The notes under the pieces were generated by a model. That model did no database searches and was not told the DNA's origin. It saw nothing but the letters and a program-made list of their open reading frames with translations. 64,000 bases of DNA from Paramicrobacterium fandaimingii. Lineage in GTDB: Bacteria > Actinomycetota > Actinomycetes > Actinomycetales > Microbacteriaceae. The number at the start of each line of letters is the position of its first letter. The first letter of the stretch is position 1. Of the stretch, positions 8,394 to 20,732 are shown in pieces. The translations under genes and the position numbers were made by a program. The DNA lies in assembly GCF_011751745.2 (NCBI RefSeq), contig NZ_CP061170.1, forward strand, positions 1,302,001-1,366,000. The letters run 5' to 3'.

Positions 8394-9011
8394 TCAGCTC
8401 GTCTCCTTCTCCTTCTCCTTGTCCTTCGCCGCGCGCTTCTTCTCGCGCGCGAGCGAGGCGAGGTCAACGTCGACGAGGCGTTTCATGCGACTCTTGCGCA
8501 TGCGGTCGTAGACATCGTCTTGGTCGGGAATGAATCCGGGTGGGCCCACACGCTTGCGCACTTCGCGGCCGATGTCTTCCCACGCGTCCGTGCGCGCACG
8601 TTCGATGATGCCAGCCATCTCAGCGTCATCGTCTGCTCGCTCGCGCAGCTGCTCCGCCAGCATCCGGTGAACCTGGGGCCTTCTGCGGTGTGCTTCATCG
8701 TCGTCTGGGCCCGGTTTGCGAAATCCTCGAGCTCTCTCCAGTCGCGACGCCGTCTGGTCGTTCTCCGCCGCGAGGGAGAGAACATGTCGCCGAGCGGAAT
8801 CGGTGAGTTTCTCGACGTCAAACCGCTCGTCATTGCGAATCGCATTGACGATCAGTGTGTTCTTCACAGCCATGCGCACAGACGACAGCGCAATCATCAC
8901 GCCCTCGTCGACGACTCGCTCGATCGGCGCGAGCACCGTCGACTTCGGCGGAATGTATCGTCCCACGTCACGGGTGCGCCTGCGGCGCCGAAGACGGGAG
9001 AATAGTGACAC
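8394..9011 (-). CDS. Conserved hypothetical protein, basic and highly charged
   Basis: 205 residues from GTG 9011 (an ATG at 9041 would overlap trpEG by 26 bases). The N-terminus is Arg-rich (LFSRLRRRRR) and the C-terminus is a Lys/Glu run ending KDKEKEKETS; the middle is charged helix with no membrane segment. It begins four bases after the trpEG stop (TAG-AGGG-GTG), so it is probably co-translated with the tryptophan enzyme and under the same attenuator. No function is recognised. The choice between the two starts is uncertain. Confidence 0.72.
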   Translation of the reverse strand: MSLFSRLRRRRRTRDVGRYIPPKSTVLAPIERVVDEGVMIALSSVRMAVKNTLIVNAIRNDERFDVEKLTDSARRHVLSLAAENDQTASRLERARGFRKPGPDDDEAHRRRPQVHRMLAEQLRERADDDAEMAGIIERARTDAWEDIGREVRKRVGPPGFIPDQDDVYDRMRKSRMKRLVDVDLASLAREKKRAAKDKEKEKETS

Positions 9012-9015
9012 CCCT

Positions 9016-10866
9016 CTATTGTGTCTGGATTGGGGCCGCATGGGGAACCATTACTGCAGAAACGAGTCGATCAAGCACGTCGAGGCCATCGGGTGACAGC
9101 ACAGATTCAAGATGGCCCTGCACCGACGCGATGCGTGCTCCGCGAAGGGCCTGCACCGATCCCGTTTCGGGATCATGCGCGATCTCGAGGGAGAGCCGTG
9201 GTGTGTGGCTTCGGCCACCGGCGACGGCCGCGAAAGTGTTGTAGAAGCCGATCCGCGCGCGGCTGCCGAAGATGTCAACGGTGCGCTGCACGCCCTGGCG
9301 TGGAGCAGGCAGGGGCTCAATCCTCAGCCCGACCATGAGCGACAGGATCTGATGGCTGAGGCACACGGCGATCATGGGCAGCCCTGACGCGACGCGATCG
9401 CTGATCAACCGGCGAAGGCGGCCGATGCGCTGCTCTGTTGAGCGCGGGTCGCCTGGGCCAGGGCCAAAGACCACGAGGTCGTCGTCTGGTGTGGGATGTG
9501 CGTGTTCCCAATCGACGACGCGGGCGGCGAAGCCGAGATGTGTGAGTTGGTGCACAAGCATCCGGGTGAAGTCATCGCCCGTGTCGATGACCAGAGCAGA
9601 CAGCCCGCGCTCGGCCTGCGGGCGCTGCGGCTGACGCCAGAACGCTGCAAGGTCGTGATTGCGCGCGGCGAGCAGCTCGTCGAAGCGAGGGTCGTCGTGA
9701 AGTGGCTGCGCCGTGGCGCCTCGAGGGATGACACCGAGTGCGCTGAGGACCCCCGATGCCTTCACGCGGGTCTCGGCCACTTCGTTCTCTGGCGTCGAAT
9801 GGCGCACGAGTGTCGCACCGGCCGACACCGTCACCGTGCCGTCATCGTCGAGGTGCGCTGCCCTGATGAGAATGGGCGCGTCGAGATCGTAGCCGTCGGC
9901 GGTCGGCATGAATCGCGCGAGCACGCCGGAGTAGTAGCGTCGGCCGCTCGACTCGTGGCGGGTGATGACACGGCAGGCGTTCTGCATGGGGGAGCCGGTC
10001 ACCGTTGGGGCGAACATCGTCAGACGCAGCACATCGCGCACGTCAAGCGGAGTCGAGCCCTCCAACAAGTACTCGGTGTGGGTCAGGCGAGACATGCGCT
10101 TCAGGAAGGGCCCCCTCATGCGCCCGCCTTCTGCGCACACAGCACTCATCATCTTGAGCTCCTCGTCCACAACCATGACGAGCTCTTCGCTCTCTTTCAC
10201 ATCAGCGAGAAACTCCAGCATGCCTTCGGTCGTCGGTCCGCTCGCCGGGTGTCGGTAGGTTCCGCTGATCGGATTCATGCCGACAACGCCATCTGTCACG
10301 CTCACGTGGCGCTCGGGCGTCGCCCCGACGAGCGAGATTCCCGGCGTGCGCACCGCGAAGGTCCAATACGCGCCATGCTCGCTGACGAGCAGCTCTCGAA
10401 GCCAGCTGAGAAGCGCAGTGACCGGCTTGTCTGAGAAGCGCGCGGTGATGTCGCGGCGGATGACGAAGTTGGCGCCCTCGCCTCGGCCGATCTCGTCATC
10501 GATGACCGTGCGCACGGTGTGGGCGTATAGATCGTCGTCGATGTCGACGGCGACATCTGACACATCGGAGGGATGCTGCGGCAGAGCCTCGAGCGCCTGC
10601 TGCACGTCGAGCGTCTCACGATCGGTGACGACGAGGCACCGCAGCGGGGAGCCGTCGTCGTGTGCGGCATACCCACGCTCGGCCACCTGCCGGAACGGAA
10701 CAAGCGTGAGCACCTCGTCGCCCGTCAGCGGGATGTCTGAGAGGGAATCGACGTCGACGACGGTTCCGACGAGAATGTCGATCGTCGGCTCGTCTTCGCG
10801 GCGGAGCAGGGCGAACGGCTGATCATCGGCGAGGATTCGGGGAAAGAGTCGCGAGCACGGTTGCAT
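9016..10866 (-). CDS. trpEG: Anthranilate synthase, fused TrpE-TrpG (PhzE type)
   Basis: Converts chorismate plus glutamine to anthranilate, the first step to tryptophan. Residues about 1-400 are the chorismate-binding domain (GATPERHVSV, NPISGTYRHP, EELVMVVDEELKMM, TMFAPTVTGSPMQNACRVI). Residues about 420-605 are a type-1 glutamine amidotransferase with GPGPGDPRS, catalytic Cys502 (AVCLSHQ), His585 and Glu587 (GHLES). The layout and VVDEELKMM motif are those of PhzE, whose product is 2-amino-2-deoxyisochorismate, so chemistry alone leaves ambiguity; the tryptophan attenuator upstream argues for anthranilate synthase. No clear Shine-Dalgarno precedes ATG 10866. Confidence 0.88.
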   Translation of the reverse strand: MQPCSRLFPRILADDQPFALLRREDEPTIDILVGTVVDVDSLSDIPLTGDEVLTLVPFRQVAERGYAAHDDGSPLRCLVVTDRETLDVQQALEALPQHPSDVSDVAVDIDDDLYAHTVRTVIDDEIGRGEGANFVIRRDITARFSDKPVTALLSWLRELLVSEHGAYWTFAVRTPGISLVGATPERHVSVTDGVVGMNPISGTYRHPASGPTTEGMLEFLADVKESEELVMVVDEELKMMSAVCAEGGRMRGPFLKRMSRLTHTEYLLEGSTPLDVRDVLRLTMFAPTVTGSPMQNACRVITRHESSGRRYYSGVLARFMPTADGYDLDAPILIRAAHLDDDGTVTVSAGATLVRHSTPENEVAETRVKASGVLSALGVIPRGATAQPLHDDPRFDELLAARNHDLAAFWRQPQRPQAERGLSALVIDTGDDFTRMLVHQLTHLGFAARVVDWEHAHPTPDDDLVVFGPGPGDPRSTEQRIGRLRRLISDRVASGLPMIAVCLSHQILSLMVGLRIEPLPAPRQGVQRTVDIFGSRARIGFYNTFAAVAGGRSHTPRLSLEIAHDPETGSVQALRGARIASVQGHLESVLSPDGLDVLDRLVSAVMVPHAAPIQTQ

Positions 10867-10911: not shown

Positions 10912-10945
10912 GCAAAACGACCGCCTCGAGGGGCGGTCGTTTTGC
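10912..10945 (-). terminator. trp attenuator terminator hairpin
   Basis: Perfect 14-bp inverted repeat (10912-10925 and 10932-10945) with a six-base loop; the GACCGCC/GGCGGTC core is followed on the minus strand by CGTTTTGC. It lies between the Trp leader peptide and trpEG. Its 5' arm can instead pair with the GGCGGTT arm at 10963-10968, giving a mutually exclusive antiterminator. Confidence 0.85.
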
Positions 10946-10962
10946 GTCGAAACGTCGAGAGA

Positions 10963-10979
10963 ACCGCCTCTCAGGCGGT
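10963..10979 (-). promoter_or_regulatory. trp attenuator 1:2 hairpin
   Basis: ACCGCCT (10979-10973 on the minus strand) pairs with AGGCGGT (10969-10963) around a three-base loop. The 5' arm overlaps the last Thr-Ala codons and stop of the leader peptide, so a ribosome stalled at the two Trp codons would cover it and free the GGCGGT arm to pair with the terminator's first arm. The triple use of ACCGCC/GGCGGT is the classic attenuator design. Confidence 0.8.
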
Positions 10980-11009
10980 CCACCACTGCATTGTCGATTC
11001 GATGCGCAT
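10971..11009 (-). CDS. trpL: trp operon leader peptide
   Basis: Twelve codons, MRIESTMQWWTA, with tandem Trp codons at 9-10, placed directly before the attenuator hairpins and the anthranilate synthase gene. The peptide resembles actinobacterial trp leader peptides, which end in a WW- or WWW-containing core. Its ATG lies exactly six bases after a TACCAT -10 hexamer (11021-11016), so translation probably starts at the 5' end of the mRNA with no Shine-Dalgarno. Confidence 0.85.
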   Translation of the reverse strand: MRIESTMQWWTA

Positions 11010-11026
11010 GACTTGATGGTAGCGCA

Positions 11027-12250
11027 TCAGTCTGCGGCGGCTGTCACCTCGGGAACGCGTGCGGGCTTCTGCAGGAGCTTCTCGGTGGGGCCGAGCGCGG
11101 CCTTGATCGTCATCATGCGCATTGCACTGTTCCTCGCGTGCGCAAGCAGTGTGCTTCGGCGAAACATGAGCCTGGCGAGCTGTCGCGAGTTTGCCTGTGC
11201 TGTCTCGACGCGGGGACGCTGTGCGGCTTCGTACGCCGTGAGCGCCGCAGCAACGTCGCCGCTCGTCGCGTCAGCGAGCGTGCCGCACAGCACCCAGGCG
11301 GACTCCATGGCCATTCCCGCTCCGATTCCCGCTGTCGGCAGAAACCCGGCCGCGGCATCGCCGAGCAGCACGGTGCGTCCACTTGACCAGCGCTTCGTAC
11401 GCACGTCGTCGAGCACCCAGTAGAACGGCTCGTCTGCCGTCTTCACCGCATCGAGTATGTTGTCGAGTCGTGACGTGCGCGAGCTGAGGCGTGCCCGGAT
11501 GCTGTCGACGAACGCCTGCGGCCCGACAGCCGTATCGTCACGCGGCCCTCCGATGAACGCGCCGATTGCGCCTGCGACCGGATAGCTTCCGACGAAGAAC
11601 CCGTTGCCCCACAGCTCTTCTCCGAGGTCGGTATCGTCATCGGGGTCGGTCCAGACGACCCACCCGCCCCAGCCCGTGAGCGTCTCGTTTGGTTTCACAC
11701 CGCCTGGCGTGAAGCGCCGGGTGTGTGAGTGAATGCCGTCGGCGATGATGACCGCGTCGAACGTCGCCTCAGCGGCCCCATCCGACGTGTCGAATCGCAC
11801 GTGCGCCGAAGCCTCCCCGTCATTGAGCGAGCGCACCGTCGTTGCGAGGGTCACGGGCGCCCCCGTCTGTGTGAGCACGTCGAGAAGTGCTCCGCGGCTG
11901 ATGCCTCGATAATCTCCGTAGTCGCGCAGCAGCTCACTGACGGAGTCTTCGCGAATCTGCGCGCCGCGGTGATTGAGCAGACGATAGCGATCCATCGGCG
12001 TGCTGGCGCTCACATACGCGTCGCGCACATCGAGAGCGTCGATCGCGGCATCCACCATCGGCATGAGTGCCAACATGTAGCCGGCGTCATCGAACGAGGT
12101 GACGCGATCGATGAGCACGGGGTGGAGCCCGCGGGCGCGGAGCAGCTGCGCTGCTGTCGTGCCGCCGATGCCCGCGCCGACGACGAGGATGCGCAGCGGG
12201 TCATGCGCGTTTGCCTGCAACTGGTCGGAAAGTGCTGCCTCTGTAAACAT
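11027..12250 (-). CDS. FAD-dependent monooxygenase (PHBH family)
   Basis: 407-residue flavoprotein of the p-hydroxybenzoate hydroxylase/UbiH group. It has the N-terminal FAD motif GAGIGG (25-30), a central NAD(P)H/FAD DG motif (AVIIADGIHSHTRR) and the C-terminal GD motif (TVLLGDAAAGFLPTAGIGAGMAMESA). ATG 12250 has AAGGAG seven bases upstream; the longer frame to 12445 runs across the operator and is rejected. It is divergent from a TetR repressor and shares its operator, so it is probably induced by the repressor's ligand. Likely roles are oxidation of an aromatic compound or of a drug; the substrate is unknown. Confidence 0.9.
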   Translation of the reverse strand: MFTEAALSDQLQANAHDPLRILVVGAGIGGTTAAQLLRARGLHPVLIDRVTSFDDAGYMLALMPMVDAAIDALDVRDAYVSASTPMDRYRLLNHRGAQIREDSVSELLRDYGDYRGISRGALLDVLTQTGAPVTLATTVRSLNDGEASAHVRFDTSDGAAEATFDAVIIADGIHSHTRRFTPGGVKPNETLTGWGGWVVWTDPDDDTDLGEELWGNGFFVGSYPVAGAIGAFIGGPRDDTAVGPQAFVDSIRARLSSRTSRLDNILDAVKTADEPFYWVLDDVRTKRWSSGRTVLLGDAAAGFLPTAGIGAGMAMESAWVLCGTLADATSGDVAAALTAYEAAQRPRVETAQANSRQLARLMFRRSTLLAHARNSAMRMMTIKAALGPTEKLLQKPARVPEVTAAAD

Positions 12251-12261
12251 TGATGCTCCTT

Positions 12262-12279
12262 TTGGACTGCTCAGTCCAA
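12262..12279. promoter_or_regulatory. TetR operator 1 (monooxygenase side)
   Basis: Perfect palindrome TTGGACTG-CT-CAGTCCAA. It covers the predicted start site of the monooxygenase (-10 TAGAGT at 12284-12279, minus strand). Its 16-bp core TGGAC-TGCTCA-GTCCA matches operator 2 (consensus TGGACYRCTCRGTCCA), so the same repressor should bind both. Confidence 0.75.
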
Positions 12280-12322
12280 CTCTACTCGCTCTGGACCACT
12301 CGGTCCAGAGCGAGTAGAGTTG
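12277..12322. promoter_or_regulatory. 46-bp inverted repeat: TetR operator 2 and two mirror-image promoters
   Basis: Two 21-bp arms (12277-12297 and 12302-12322), perfectly complementary around ACTC. The centre is operator 2, TGGACCACTCGGTCCA (12292-12307). Each arm carries the same -10 hexamer TAGAGT (plus: 12315-12320; minus: 12284-12279), and CTGGAC lies 18 bases upstream of each as a possible -35, so both promoters are built from one symmetrical sequence and share the central operator. Confidence 0.8.
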
Positions 12323-12326
12323 CGAT

Positions 12327-12953
12327 GTGGCGATGATTGGCGAACGACGAACAGCTCTTGTACGCACGGCAGCGCGGGAATTCGCCGCCTCCGGGTACCA
12401 GCGGGCGTCACTCAATGCGATCATTCGCGAGTGCGGTCTGAGCAAGAGCTCGTTCTACAACATCCTCGATTCAAAGCTCGCGCTCTACGATCTCGTGGTG
12501 ATCGACGTTGCACAGCAGCTCACAGCGGAACTCGCGCTACCAGCCCCCGCGACGTTTGGGGGCGACGCGTACTGGCAGCGCATCGTCGATGTGATTGTGC
12601 GACTCACGCAGGTGCTCACGAGCGACGACGTCTACGCTGATTTGGCGCAGATGCTCTATGACACGCAGGCTCCGGACGAACCGAACGAGGCGGGTCGTAT
12701 TCTCGACGCGGCAGGCGAGTGGATTCGCGAGGTTGTGCGCGTTGGGCGTGAGTGTGGAGCAGTCCGCGACGATCTGCCGATCTCTCTGCAGGGCGAACTC
12801 GCCTTCACGATGCTGCGCACGTTTGACGAGTGGAGCGTGAATAACCTCGACACGATTCCCGCCGACCAGCTGACAGCGCTCGTCGACGCGCAGCTGGCAG
12901 CGTTGCGGAGGCTCTTCGCGCCCTCGTCGCCGTCAGAAAAGCGAACCGTGTGA
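12327..12953 (+). CDS. TetR family transcriptional regulator
   Basis: 208 residues. Residues 1-55 are a TetR DNA-binding domain (RTALVRTAAREFAASGYQ, then helix-turn-helix SLNAIIRECGLSKSSFYNIL); the rest is the helical ligand-binding and dimer domain. It is divergent from the FAD monooxygenase across a shared palindromic operator, so it very likely represses both genes. GTG 12327 is exactly six bases after the TAGAGT -10, predicting a leaderless transcript; ATG 12333 is an alternative. Its 3' end overlaps a convergent small gene by 21 bases. Confidence 0.93.
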   Translation: MAMIGERRTALVRTAAREFAASGYQRASLNAIIRECGLSKSSFYNILDSKLALYDLVVIDVAQQLTAELALPAPATFGGDAYWQRIVDVIVRLTQVLTSDDVYADLAQMLYDTQAPDEPNEAGRILDAAGEWIREVVRVGRECGAVRDDLPISLQGELAFTMLRTFDEWSVNNLDTIPADQLTALVDAQLAALRRLFAPSSPSEKRTV

Positions 12954-20377: not shown

Positions 20378-20556
20378 GCACCAATTTTGCCACCAAACAC
20401 CGACATGTATTCGACTGAATTGCAATCTGTGGATAACTAAGATTCGAAGATAAATACGCATTCAATTTGTGGACAACCACCAGTACATCGGACGTCATCG
20501 AGTTTTCGAACGCGGCAGGATAAGCTGTGAGTGCAACTGAATATCAGGCCCACACA
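20378..20556. other. AT-rich intergenic stretch between HNH gene and glycine riboswitch
   Basis: About 180 bases, noticeably richer in A and T than the genes (20378-20490), holding the right direct repeat (20493-20508) and presumably the promoters of the HNH gene (-) and the gcv operon (+). No strong -35/-10 pair is obvious; TAAGCT at 20521-20526 is a possible gcv -10. Confidence 0.5.
20493..20508 (+). repeat. Direct repeat, right copy, flanking the DUF222/HNH gene
   Basis: Exact 16-base copy of the sequence at 18859-18874, with partial similarity continuing for about ten bases (ACGC-GC-GG in register). It lies 116 bases upstream of the HNH gene start and about 50 bases before the glycine riboswitch. 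Confidence 0.65.
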
Positions 20557-20732
20557 CGATGCGGGAGAGCTCGTCACCTCGAGCACCGAAGGAGCAAGCC
20601 TCCCCGCCAATCTCTCAGGTTCCATACCGCATCGTTCTGGCCACTCTGAAAAGCGGAGCGACTGCTCCCGCCCACGGTGAAAGTCGCTTCCCAGCGGCGA
20701 AGCTCTCAGGCTCATGACAGAGGGGGAGTTCC
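20557..20732 (+). promoter_or_regulatory. Glycine riboswitch, tandem aptamers
   Basis: Aptamer 1 (about 20557-20640) has the conserved GGGAGAGC, ACCGAAGGAGCAAGCC and CCGCCAATCTCTCAGG elements. Aptamer 2 (about 20645-20732) has GCGGAGCGACT, CGGTGAAAGTC and CGAAGCTCTCAGGCTCATGACAGAGG. It stands in the leader of gcvT-gcvH-gcvP, where glycine switches the cleavage system on. A short hairpin (GCAC-GCT-GTGC, about 20743-20753) follows before the gcvT ribosome site TTGGAG (20765-20770). The exact boundaries are estimates. Confidence 0.9.

Follow-up and report, generated by a model that had tools for sequence, protein, structure and literature searches.

The window analysed here is a 64,000-nucleotide stretch of the genome of Paramicrobacterium fandaimingii (3.62 Mb, one contig); among named proteins, the closest belong to Microbacterium sp. 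MPKO10 and to Paramicrobacterium (family Microbacteriaceae). On its reverse strand, a short ORF with two adjacent Trp codons lies between an ORF for a FAD monooxygenase and a gene for a fused chorismate-binding/glutamine amidotransferase enzyme, and the spacer CAAGTC separates its ATG from a -10 element (Table 1). A sequence-only reading of this DNA had placed here a 12-codon Trp-Trp leader with its ATG 6 nt past TACCAT, and the coordinates, the leader and the spacing are all confirmed in the sequence; the "three copies" of ACCGCC/GGCGGT that it counted are in fact four segments, two ACCGCC and two GGCGGT.

Table 1. Features of the leader locus in the window
Feature	Position	Strand	Basis or remark
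-10 element TACCAT	11021-11016	-	6 nt 5' of the leader start codon; read in sequence
Leader peptide ORF MRIESTMQWWTA, 12 codons, with stop (stop 10973-10971)	11009-10971	-	Read in sequence
Tandem Trp codons UGG UGG in the leader	10980..10985	-	Invariant columns in alignment A2 (28 leaders)
Segment 1, ACCGCC, immediately 3' of the Trp codons	10979-10974	-	
Segment 2, GGCGGT, just beyond the leader stop	10968-10963	-	Partner is segment 1 or segment 3
Segment 3, terminator 5' arm GCAAAACGACCGCC	10932..10945	-	Core ACCGCC 10937-10932
Segment 4, terminator 3' arm GGCGGTCGTTTTGC	10912..10925	-	Core GGCGGT 10925-10920
Fused chorismate-binding/glutamine amidotransferase enzyme, TrpEG type, 616 aa	10866-9016	-	Pfam PF00425 and PF00117; tree position
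FAD monooxygenase ORF (longest form)	11027..12445	-	5' of the leader promoter; ends just before it

The spacing of the -10 element indicates that the leader transcript probably starts at or near 11009. The leader promoter is without a consensus -35, the U-run (CGUUUUGC) is short and itself paired within the stem, and a promoter and terminator scanner called neither a promoter nor an intrinsic terminator at the leader site. An Rfam scan of the window returned no trp leader, and a known riboswitch or T-box as the identity of the leader was rejected, there being no Rfam match at the site. Elsewhere in the window, tandem glycine riboswitch aptamers (20552-20727, +) and a TPP riboswitch (1393-1493, +), the latter at the start of an ORF that is followed by thiG and thiF, exceed the Rfam gathering score. 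The last 26 nt of the fused gene are shared with a 215-aa ORF (8394-9041, -) that has no Pfam match.

The fused enzyme among its relatives

The best solved relative of the fused protein is 3r74, the PhzE of Burkholderia (E 9.7e-146, nearly full length), and the NCBIfam anthranilate synthase models score far under their cut-offs (TrpE-clade3, 127.2 against 739.15 bits; PRK13566, 144.5 against 645), so that annotation alone does not decide what the enzyme is. Both points would suit an ADIC synthase (a true PhzE) that serves a secondary metabolite, with Trp control merely sparing chorismate, as would the canonical trpE and trpG already in the genome and the statement, in the available text of PMC5958127, that sequence alone does not explain the difference between the two activities. 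The protein, however, lies outside the PhzE group in both trees that were built, among the attenuated enzymes, and so does not group with the characterised PhzE. The first tree, of 181 proteins, was made by a quick method from 186 loci after removal of identical duplicates and of L104 and L117, where only a short part could be aligned. In it, PhzE 3r74 is joined by 31 rows (SH-aLRT 99), none of which has the leader, while outside the PhzE group the leader is present in 131 rows and absent from 16, with 2 more truncated upstream; these leader frequencies differ from those of a random sample because 37 of the 60 later-added stretches were chosen for having no leader. In a second tree (87 rows), for which the leader-bearing rows were thinned to one in three and most of the longest branches and the PhzE reference were omitted, the 27 PhzE-group rows that remained form a single clade with a support of 100.

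The neighbourhood of the genes follows the same division. An isochorismatase (PhzD-like) domain gene lies directly upstream and on the same strand in 25 of the 26 PhzE-group genes tested (all but the five from named contigs), and 12.7 kb off in the 26th (G329). No phzD-type gene stands beside the window enzyme, the genome's sole isochorismatase match being about 1 Mb distant, and the ten neighbouring ORFs scanned (DAO, ThiG, ThiF, TetR, class-V aminotransferase, QRPTase, FAD_binding_2 and three without a match) contain nothing phenazine-like. In six genomes compared for both copies (G361, G188, G289, G422, G388 and G299), the copy that falls outside the PhzE group has the leader and the other copy lacks it. 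An ADIC synthase is thereby left as an improbable reading, given the position of the protein in the trees and the distance of the isochorismatase gene, even if it is the best placed of the alternatives. The earlier suggestion that control by Trp argues for an anthranilate product is supported, because the leader stands before 0 of the 31 PhzE-group rows and 131 of the 147 others.

What is new here is the supported proposal that the leader would mark TrpEG and not PhzE; a split between TrpEG with a leader and PhzE linked to PhzD was not found stated in the literature searched, which excluded most subscription journals. Several PhzE-like fused enzymes carry the name "phenazine biosynthesis protein PhzE", and many so named are probably anthranilate synthases. 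The division offers a simple sign that can be tested, in which a Trp-Trp leader before the gene would point to TrpEG and an isochorismatase gene directly upstream to PhzE.

Four chorismate-binding proteins are encoded in the genome, namely a canonical TrpE, which exceeds the NCBIfam cut-offs (PRK13571) and has trpC, trpB and trpA downstream, a PabB-like protein just below its cut-off, an isochorismate synthase above its subfamily cut-off, and the fused enzyme; a TrpG/PabA-type amidotransferase, above the trpG_papA subfamily cut-off, is also present. The sequence-only reading had named a separate trpE-trpG pair together with phenazine linkage as one combination that would speak against it, and the first part was found, as a separate trpE and a TrpG-type gene, with no phenazine-like linkage beside it. 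Because canonical trpE and trpG are present, the fused enzyme is not obviously required for Trp synthesis, and it would therefore be a second, Trp-attenuated anthranilate synthase. Canonical trpE has no space for a leader, since its ORF shares 4 nt with the one before it, which is hisI-like by eye. The LLES motif, which is part of Trp feedback inhibition, is carried by the canonical TrpE, and a search of the first 150 aligned residues of the fused proteins for LL[ED]S followed by S gave 0 of 186. With LLES and no leader on the one side, and an attenuator and no LLES on the other, it is proposed that the cell has two anthranilate synthases under different control.

Conservation of the leader and its -10 spacing

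The leader was followed through 199 regions upstream of fused genes, comprising 80 named loci (the best 80 of 565 confirmed), 46 loci from family and class searches, 72 class-search stretches hand-picked for spread over families from at least 120 further matches, and the window, which is counted twice (as WIN and L099); two of the loci, L036 and L070, are truncated contigs. Of these regions, 151 contain a short ORF in which two or more Trp codons are adjacent, and the non-redundant leaders number 141. In 150 of the 151, TANNNT lies 6-8 nt before the start codon (6 nt in 65, 7 nt in 82 and 8 nt in 3), a count in which the choice of start codon favoured a -10; rules blind to the -10 give 97 (longest ORF), 121 (shortest) and 128 (first ATG giving <=20 codons) of the 151. 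Other ATG or GTG codons of the same regions have TANNNT at such a spacing in only 15 of 4092 cases. First-order Markov resamples of the regions contain a Trp-Trp ORF in 17 of 995 and one with the -10 in 0 of 995, and the reverse strands give 10 and 0 of 199, respectively. The leader with its -10 spacing was found across Microbacteriaceae, Promicromonosporaceae, Micromonosporaceae, Pseudonocardiaceae, Streptomycetaceae and others; it is more than chance, real and widely conserved.

A model of the leader region, R1, has in the window's own genome a single strong copy (E 1.7e-24), with the next full-length match at E 0.138; the second match there is the same hairpin on the opposite strand. Among 100 genomes of the family, a strong R1 match (E <=2e-9) stands beside the fused gene in 10 of the 11 genomes having one, and the family-wide search gave a match at E <=0.01 in 50 of the 100, mostly weak or hairpin-only.

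The near-fixed spacing also bears on how the leader would be translated. The attenuator could be real and its leader read from a longer, leadered transcript, for instance by read-through from the monooxygenase ORF, which lies on the leader's strand and stops at 11027, a short way ahead of it, and the absence of a -35 consensus would fit such a transcript. This is nevertheless very improbable, because 150 of the 151 leaders, from many genera, start 6-8 nt after a TANNNT and because the Streptomyces lividans counterpart is reported as leaderless in the accessible part of PMC8079986. A leaderless leader, as the sequence-only reading had it, is thus supported by the spacing and by the published Streptomyces RNA-seq (PMC8079986, as far as its available text goes), and the start site would be at or beside the AUG. 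That the hairpin, which does lie downstream of the monooxygenase gene, is a mere terminator of that gene and the small ORF incidental was considered and rejected as hardly credible, since relatives, too, have the Trp-Trp leader, the -10 spacing and the hairpin ahead of the fused gene, and the controls yielded 0 of 995 and 0 of 199.

Outside the PhzE group, 17 rows (16 genes; L252 is the same as L116) are without a Trp-Trp leader. In 11 of these rows (10 of the 16 genes) it is the fused gene itself that has an in-frame start 6-8 nt after a TANNNT, which is the case in none of the 136 attenuated rows and none of the 31 PhzE-group rows; this is a loose count that takes any in-frame start within about 80 codons and in which L080 and L093 are doubtful. 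One set of such genes is found in family f34, where seven fused trpEG genes without an attenuator (L200-L203, L207, L208 and L213) start 6-8 nt after TANNNT, and these look as if the leader cassette had been lost and the leaderless promoter retained. In family f25, three loci (L191, L198 and L199) have a degenerate leader with one Trp codon, the -10 spacing kept and, by eye, a terminator-like hairpin.

Five R1 loci away from fused genes were viewed (L278, L289, L290, L294 and L295), and only L289 has a Trp-Trp leader with a -10. At this locus, in a Microbacteriaceae genome (G089:C1, about 3691875-3691998, -), a leaderless-looking Trp leader, MHMTTAWWPTFSVG, with TATGTT 7 nt before its ATG, and a hairpin with a T-run precede a Methyltransf_11 protein; no fused TrpEG match was found in this genome at E 1e-100. 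Among 198 genomes at E 1e-30, the Methyltransf_11 protein has one further relative, in G016, and no such leader stands before it. At L290 (G071), the hairpin lies, by eye, behind another gene.

Alternative RNA pairings and the proposed mechanism

The leader RNA of the window folds at -54.8 kcal/mol (z -5.80), and 0 of 200 shuffles fold as low. An alignment of 28 leaders shows little or no variation in TGGTGG, in the GGCG core of segment 2 or in the CCGCC/GGCGG core of the terminator. The cells of the terminator are paired in 91.1%, as opposed to 28.2-65.0% after sliding, and in three of its pairs both sides are changed; the cells of the 2:3 helix are paired in 85.2% (<=60.7% slid) and those of the 1:2 helix in 79.6% (<=54.4% slid), and the covariation scores of 1:2 and 2:3 are no higher than in slid controls. 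The common CCGCC/GGCGG form of the segments occurs in 104 of the 141 non-redundant leaders and is missing from 37. In these 104, the first pair outside the terminator core, made by the base before the CCGCC of segment 3 and its partner in segment 4, is A-T in 71, G-C in 30 and G-T in 3; a G in segment 3 is matched by a C in segment 2 in 32 of 33 leaders, and an A by a T in only 33 of 71, related sequences being counted many times in all these tallies. Shuffle tests on single loci are weak (p <=0.05 for 2:3 in 56 of 139 and for 1:2 in 20 of 139). By the criteria used, a terminator stem was not found in 11 of 150 leaders, the automated choice of stem being wrong in some leaders (L018, L210), and the distance from the start codon to the terminator end has a median of 94 nt (139 leaders).

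When the leader RNA of the window is folded without a ribosome, 1:2 is present by nt 60 (-18.9); with nt 1-38 masked and segment 4 not yet made, 2:3 forms (-12.5), and with nt 1-50 masked, 3:4 forms (-28.9). The masking follows the size of the ribosome footprint. Mutually exclusive antiterminator and terminator hairpins that overlap the leader are therefore present in the folds of this leader, and they are kept in relatives, which agrees with the exclusive 1:2, 2:3 and terminator pairings originally envisaged; the trp attenuator itself is likewise supported by its conservation and by the alternative pairings in relatives, with the single-locus shuffle tests weak. The attenuator model needs kinetics, because 3:4 beats 2:3 once the whole terminator has been transcribed.

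In the proposed mechanism, transcription would begin at or beside the leader AUG, and the ribosome would load on the 5' end of the mRNA. When charged tRNA-Trp is scarce, the ribosome would stall at the two UGG codons (nt 25-30) and cover segment 1, leaving segment 2 free to pair with segment 3 as the antiterminator, which in turn would allow the fused gene to be transcribed. When Trp is plentiful, the ribosome would reach the stop codon and cover segments 1 and 2, so that the 3:4 terminator would form and transcription end at about nt 98. If no ribosome loads, 1:2 would form, and termination is expected to result as well.

A short leader ORF with tandem Trp codons thus stands before a gene with a presumed role in Trp biosynthesis. 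Our main reading, to which we give a probability of about 0.86, is that the locus is a ribosome-mediated Trp attenuator with a leaderless leader, controlling a second, fused anthranilate synthase of the TrpEG type and not a phenazine ADIC synthase; the sequence and its conservation, the spacing, the pairing potential, the phylogenetic split and the gene context are observed, and from them we infer the start site, the stalling, the termination and the product. A wider proposal, which we hold tentatively and at slightly less than even odds, is that the leaderless start is an integral and selected part of the TrpEG attenuator of Actinomycetes and no accident, with the ribosome that senses Trp loading on the 5' end of the mRNA, promoter and AUG as a stable unit and the two synthases under complementary control. 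The 141 non-redundant leaders are natural variants of a probably leaderless attenuator, and they provide a way to study how the first ribosome at a 5' AUG keeps up with RNA polymerase.

Comparison with known systems

PhzE 3r74 has the same fused chorismate-binding and amidotransferase domains as the window enzyme, with a full-length match, whereas its group is without the leader and is coupled to phzD-like genes, the window enzyme being the opposite in both respects. In mycobacteria, leaderless polycysteine attenuators are reportedly present, judging by the title of Canestrari et al. 2020; these would share a leaderless short ORF with the window and concern cysteine instead of Trp.

A Trp attenuator before the anthranilate synthase gene of Streptomyces venezuelae was reportedly studied by experiment by Lin et al. 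1998. In the available text of later papers, this work is cited for the S. venezuelae attenuator by Seliverstov et al. 2005 (PMC1262725) and also in PMC4833913, and others, citing Ashenafi et al. 2015, call the fused enzyme of this species an anthranilate synthase (PMC5897657, PMC5958127). As so described, S. venezuelae TrpEG resembles the window locus in its fused chorismate-binding and GATase domains and its Trp leader. The trp attenuators that Seliverstov et al. 2005 predicted for Corynebacterium and Streptomyces have, in the accessible portion of that paper, leaders with double or triple UGG and mutually exclusive hairpins, like the window locus; they are for trp operons, and the word "leaderless" is absent from this text (PMC1262725).

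The closest counterpart is trpL1-trpE of S. lividans (SLIV_27122/SLIV_27120), in which, according to the available sections of PMC8079986, the leader trpL1 (MFAHSTRNWWWTAHPAAH) is leaderless by RNA-seq and is followed by a terminator that appears to be Rho-independent and by a monocistronic trpE. As would be the case in the window, this is a leaderless Trp leader before an anthranilate synthase gene, with two hairpins and a U-rich stretch before the monocistronic gene (PMC8079986, same sections). It differs in that, in the published description, trpL1 has three Trp codons and 18 residues, as opposed to two Trp codons and 12 residues in the window, and its GGCGGC stretch is inside the leader ORF, whereas segment 2 of the window is past the stop. 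Leaders one residue off trpL1 (MFAHSTQNWWWTAHPAAH: L157, L168 and L169) precede the fused gene in three genomes, so that S. lividans and the window very probably have the same arrangement, and by analogy with these leaders SLIV_27120 would be of the fused type. Leaderless leader peptides have been reported for other amino acids too, in the parts of the sources available (PMC8079986; PMC5784534), and, together with trpL1, they mean that the window attenuator is not new in kind. Streptomyces already provides a case of leaderless Trp attenuation of such a gene, and the novelty of the present locus is modest.
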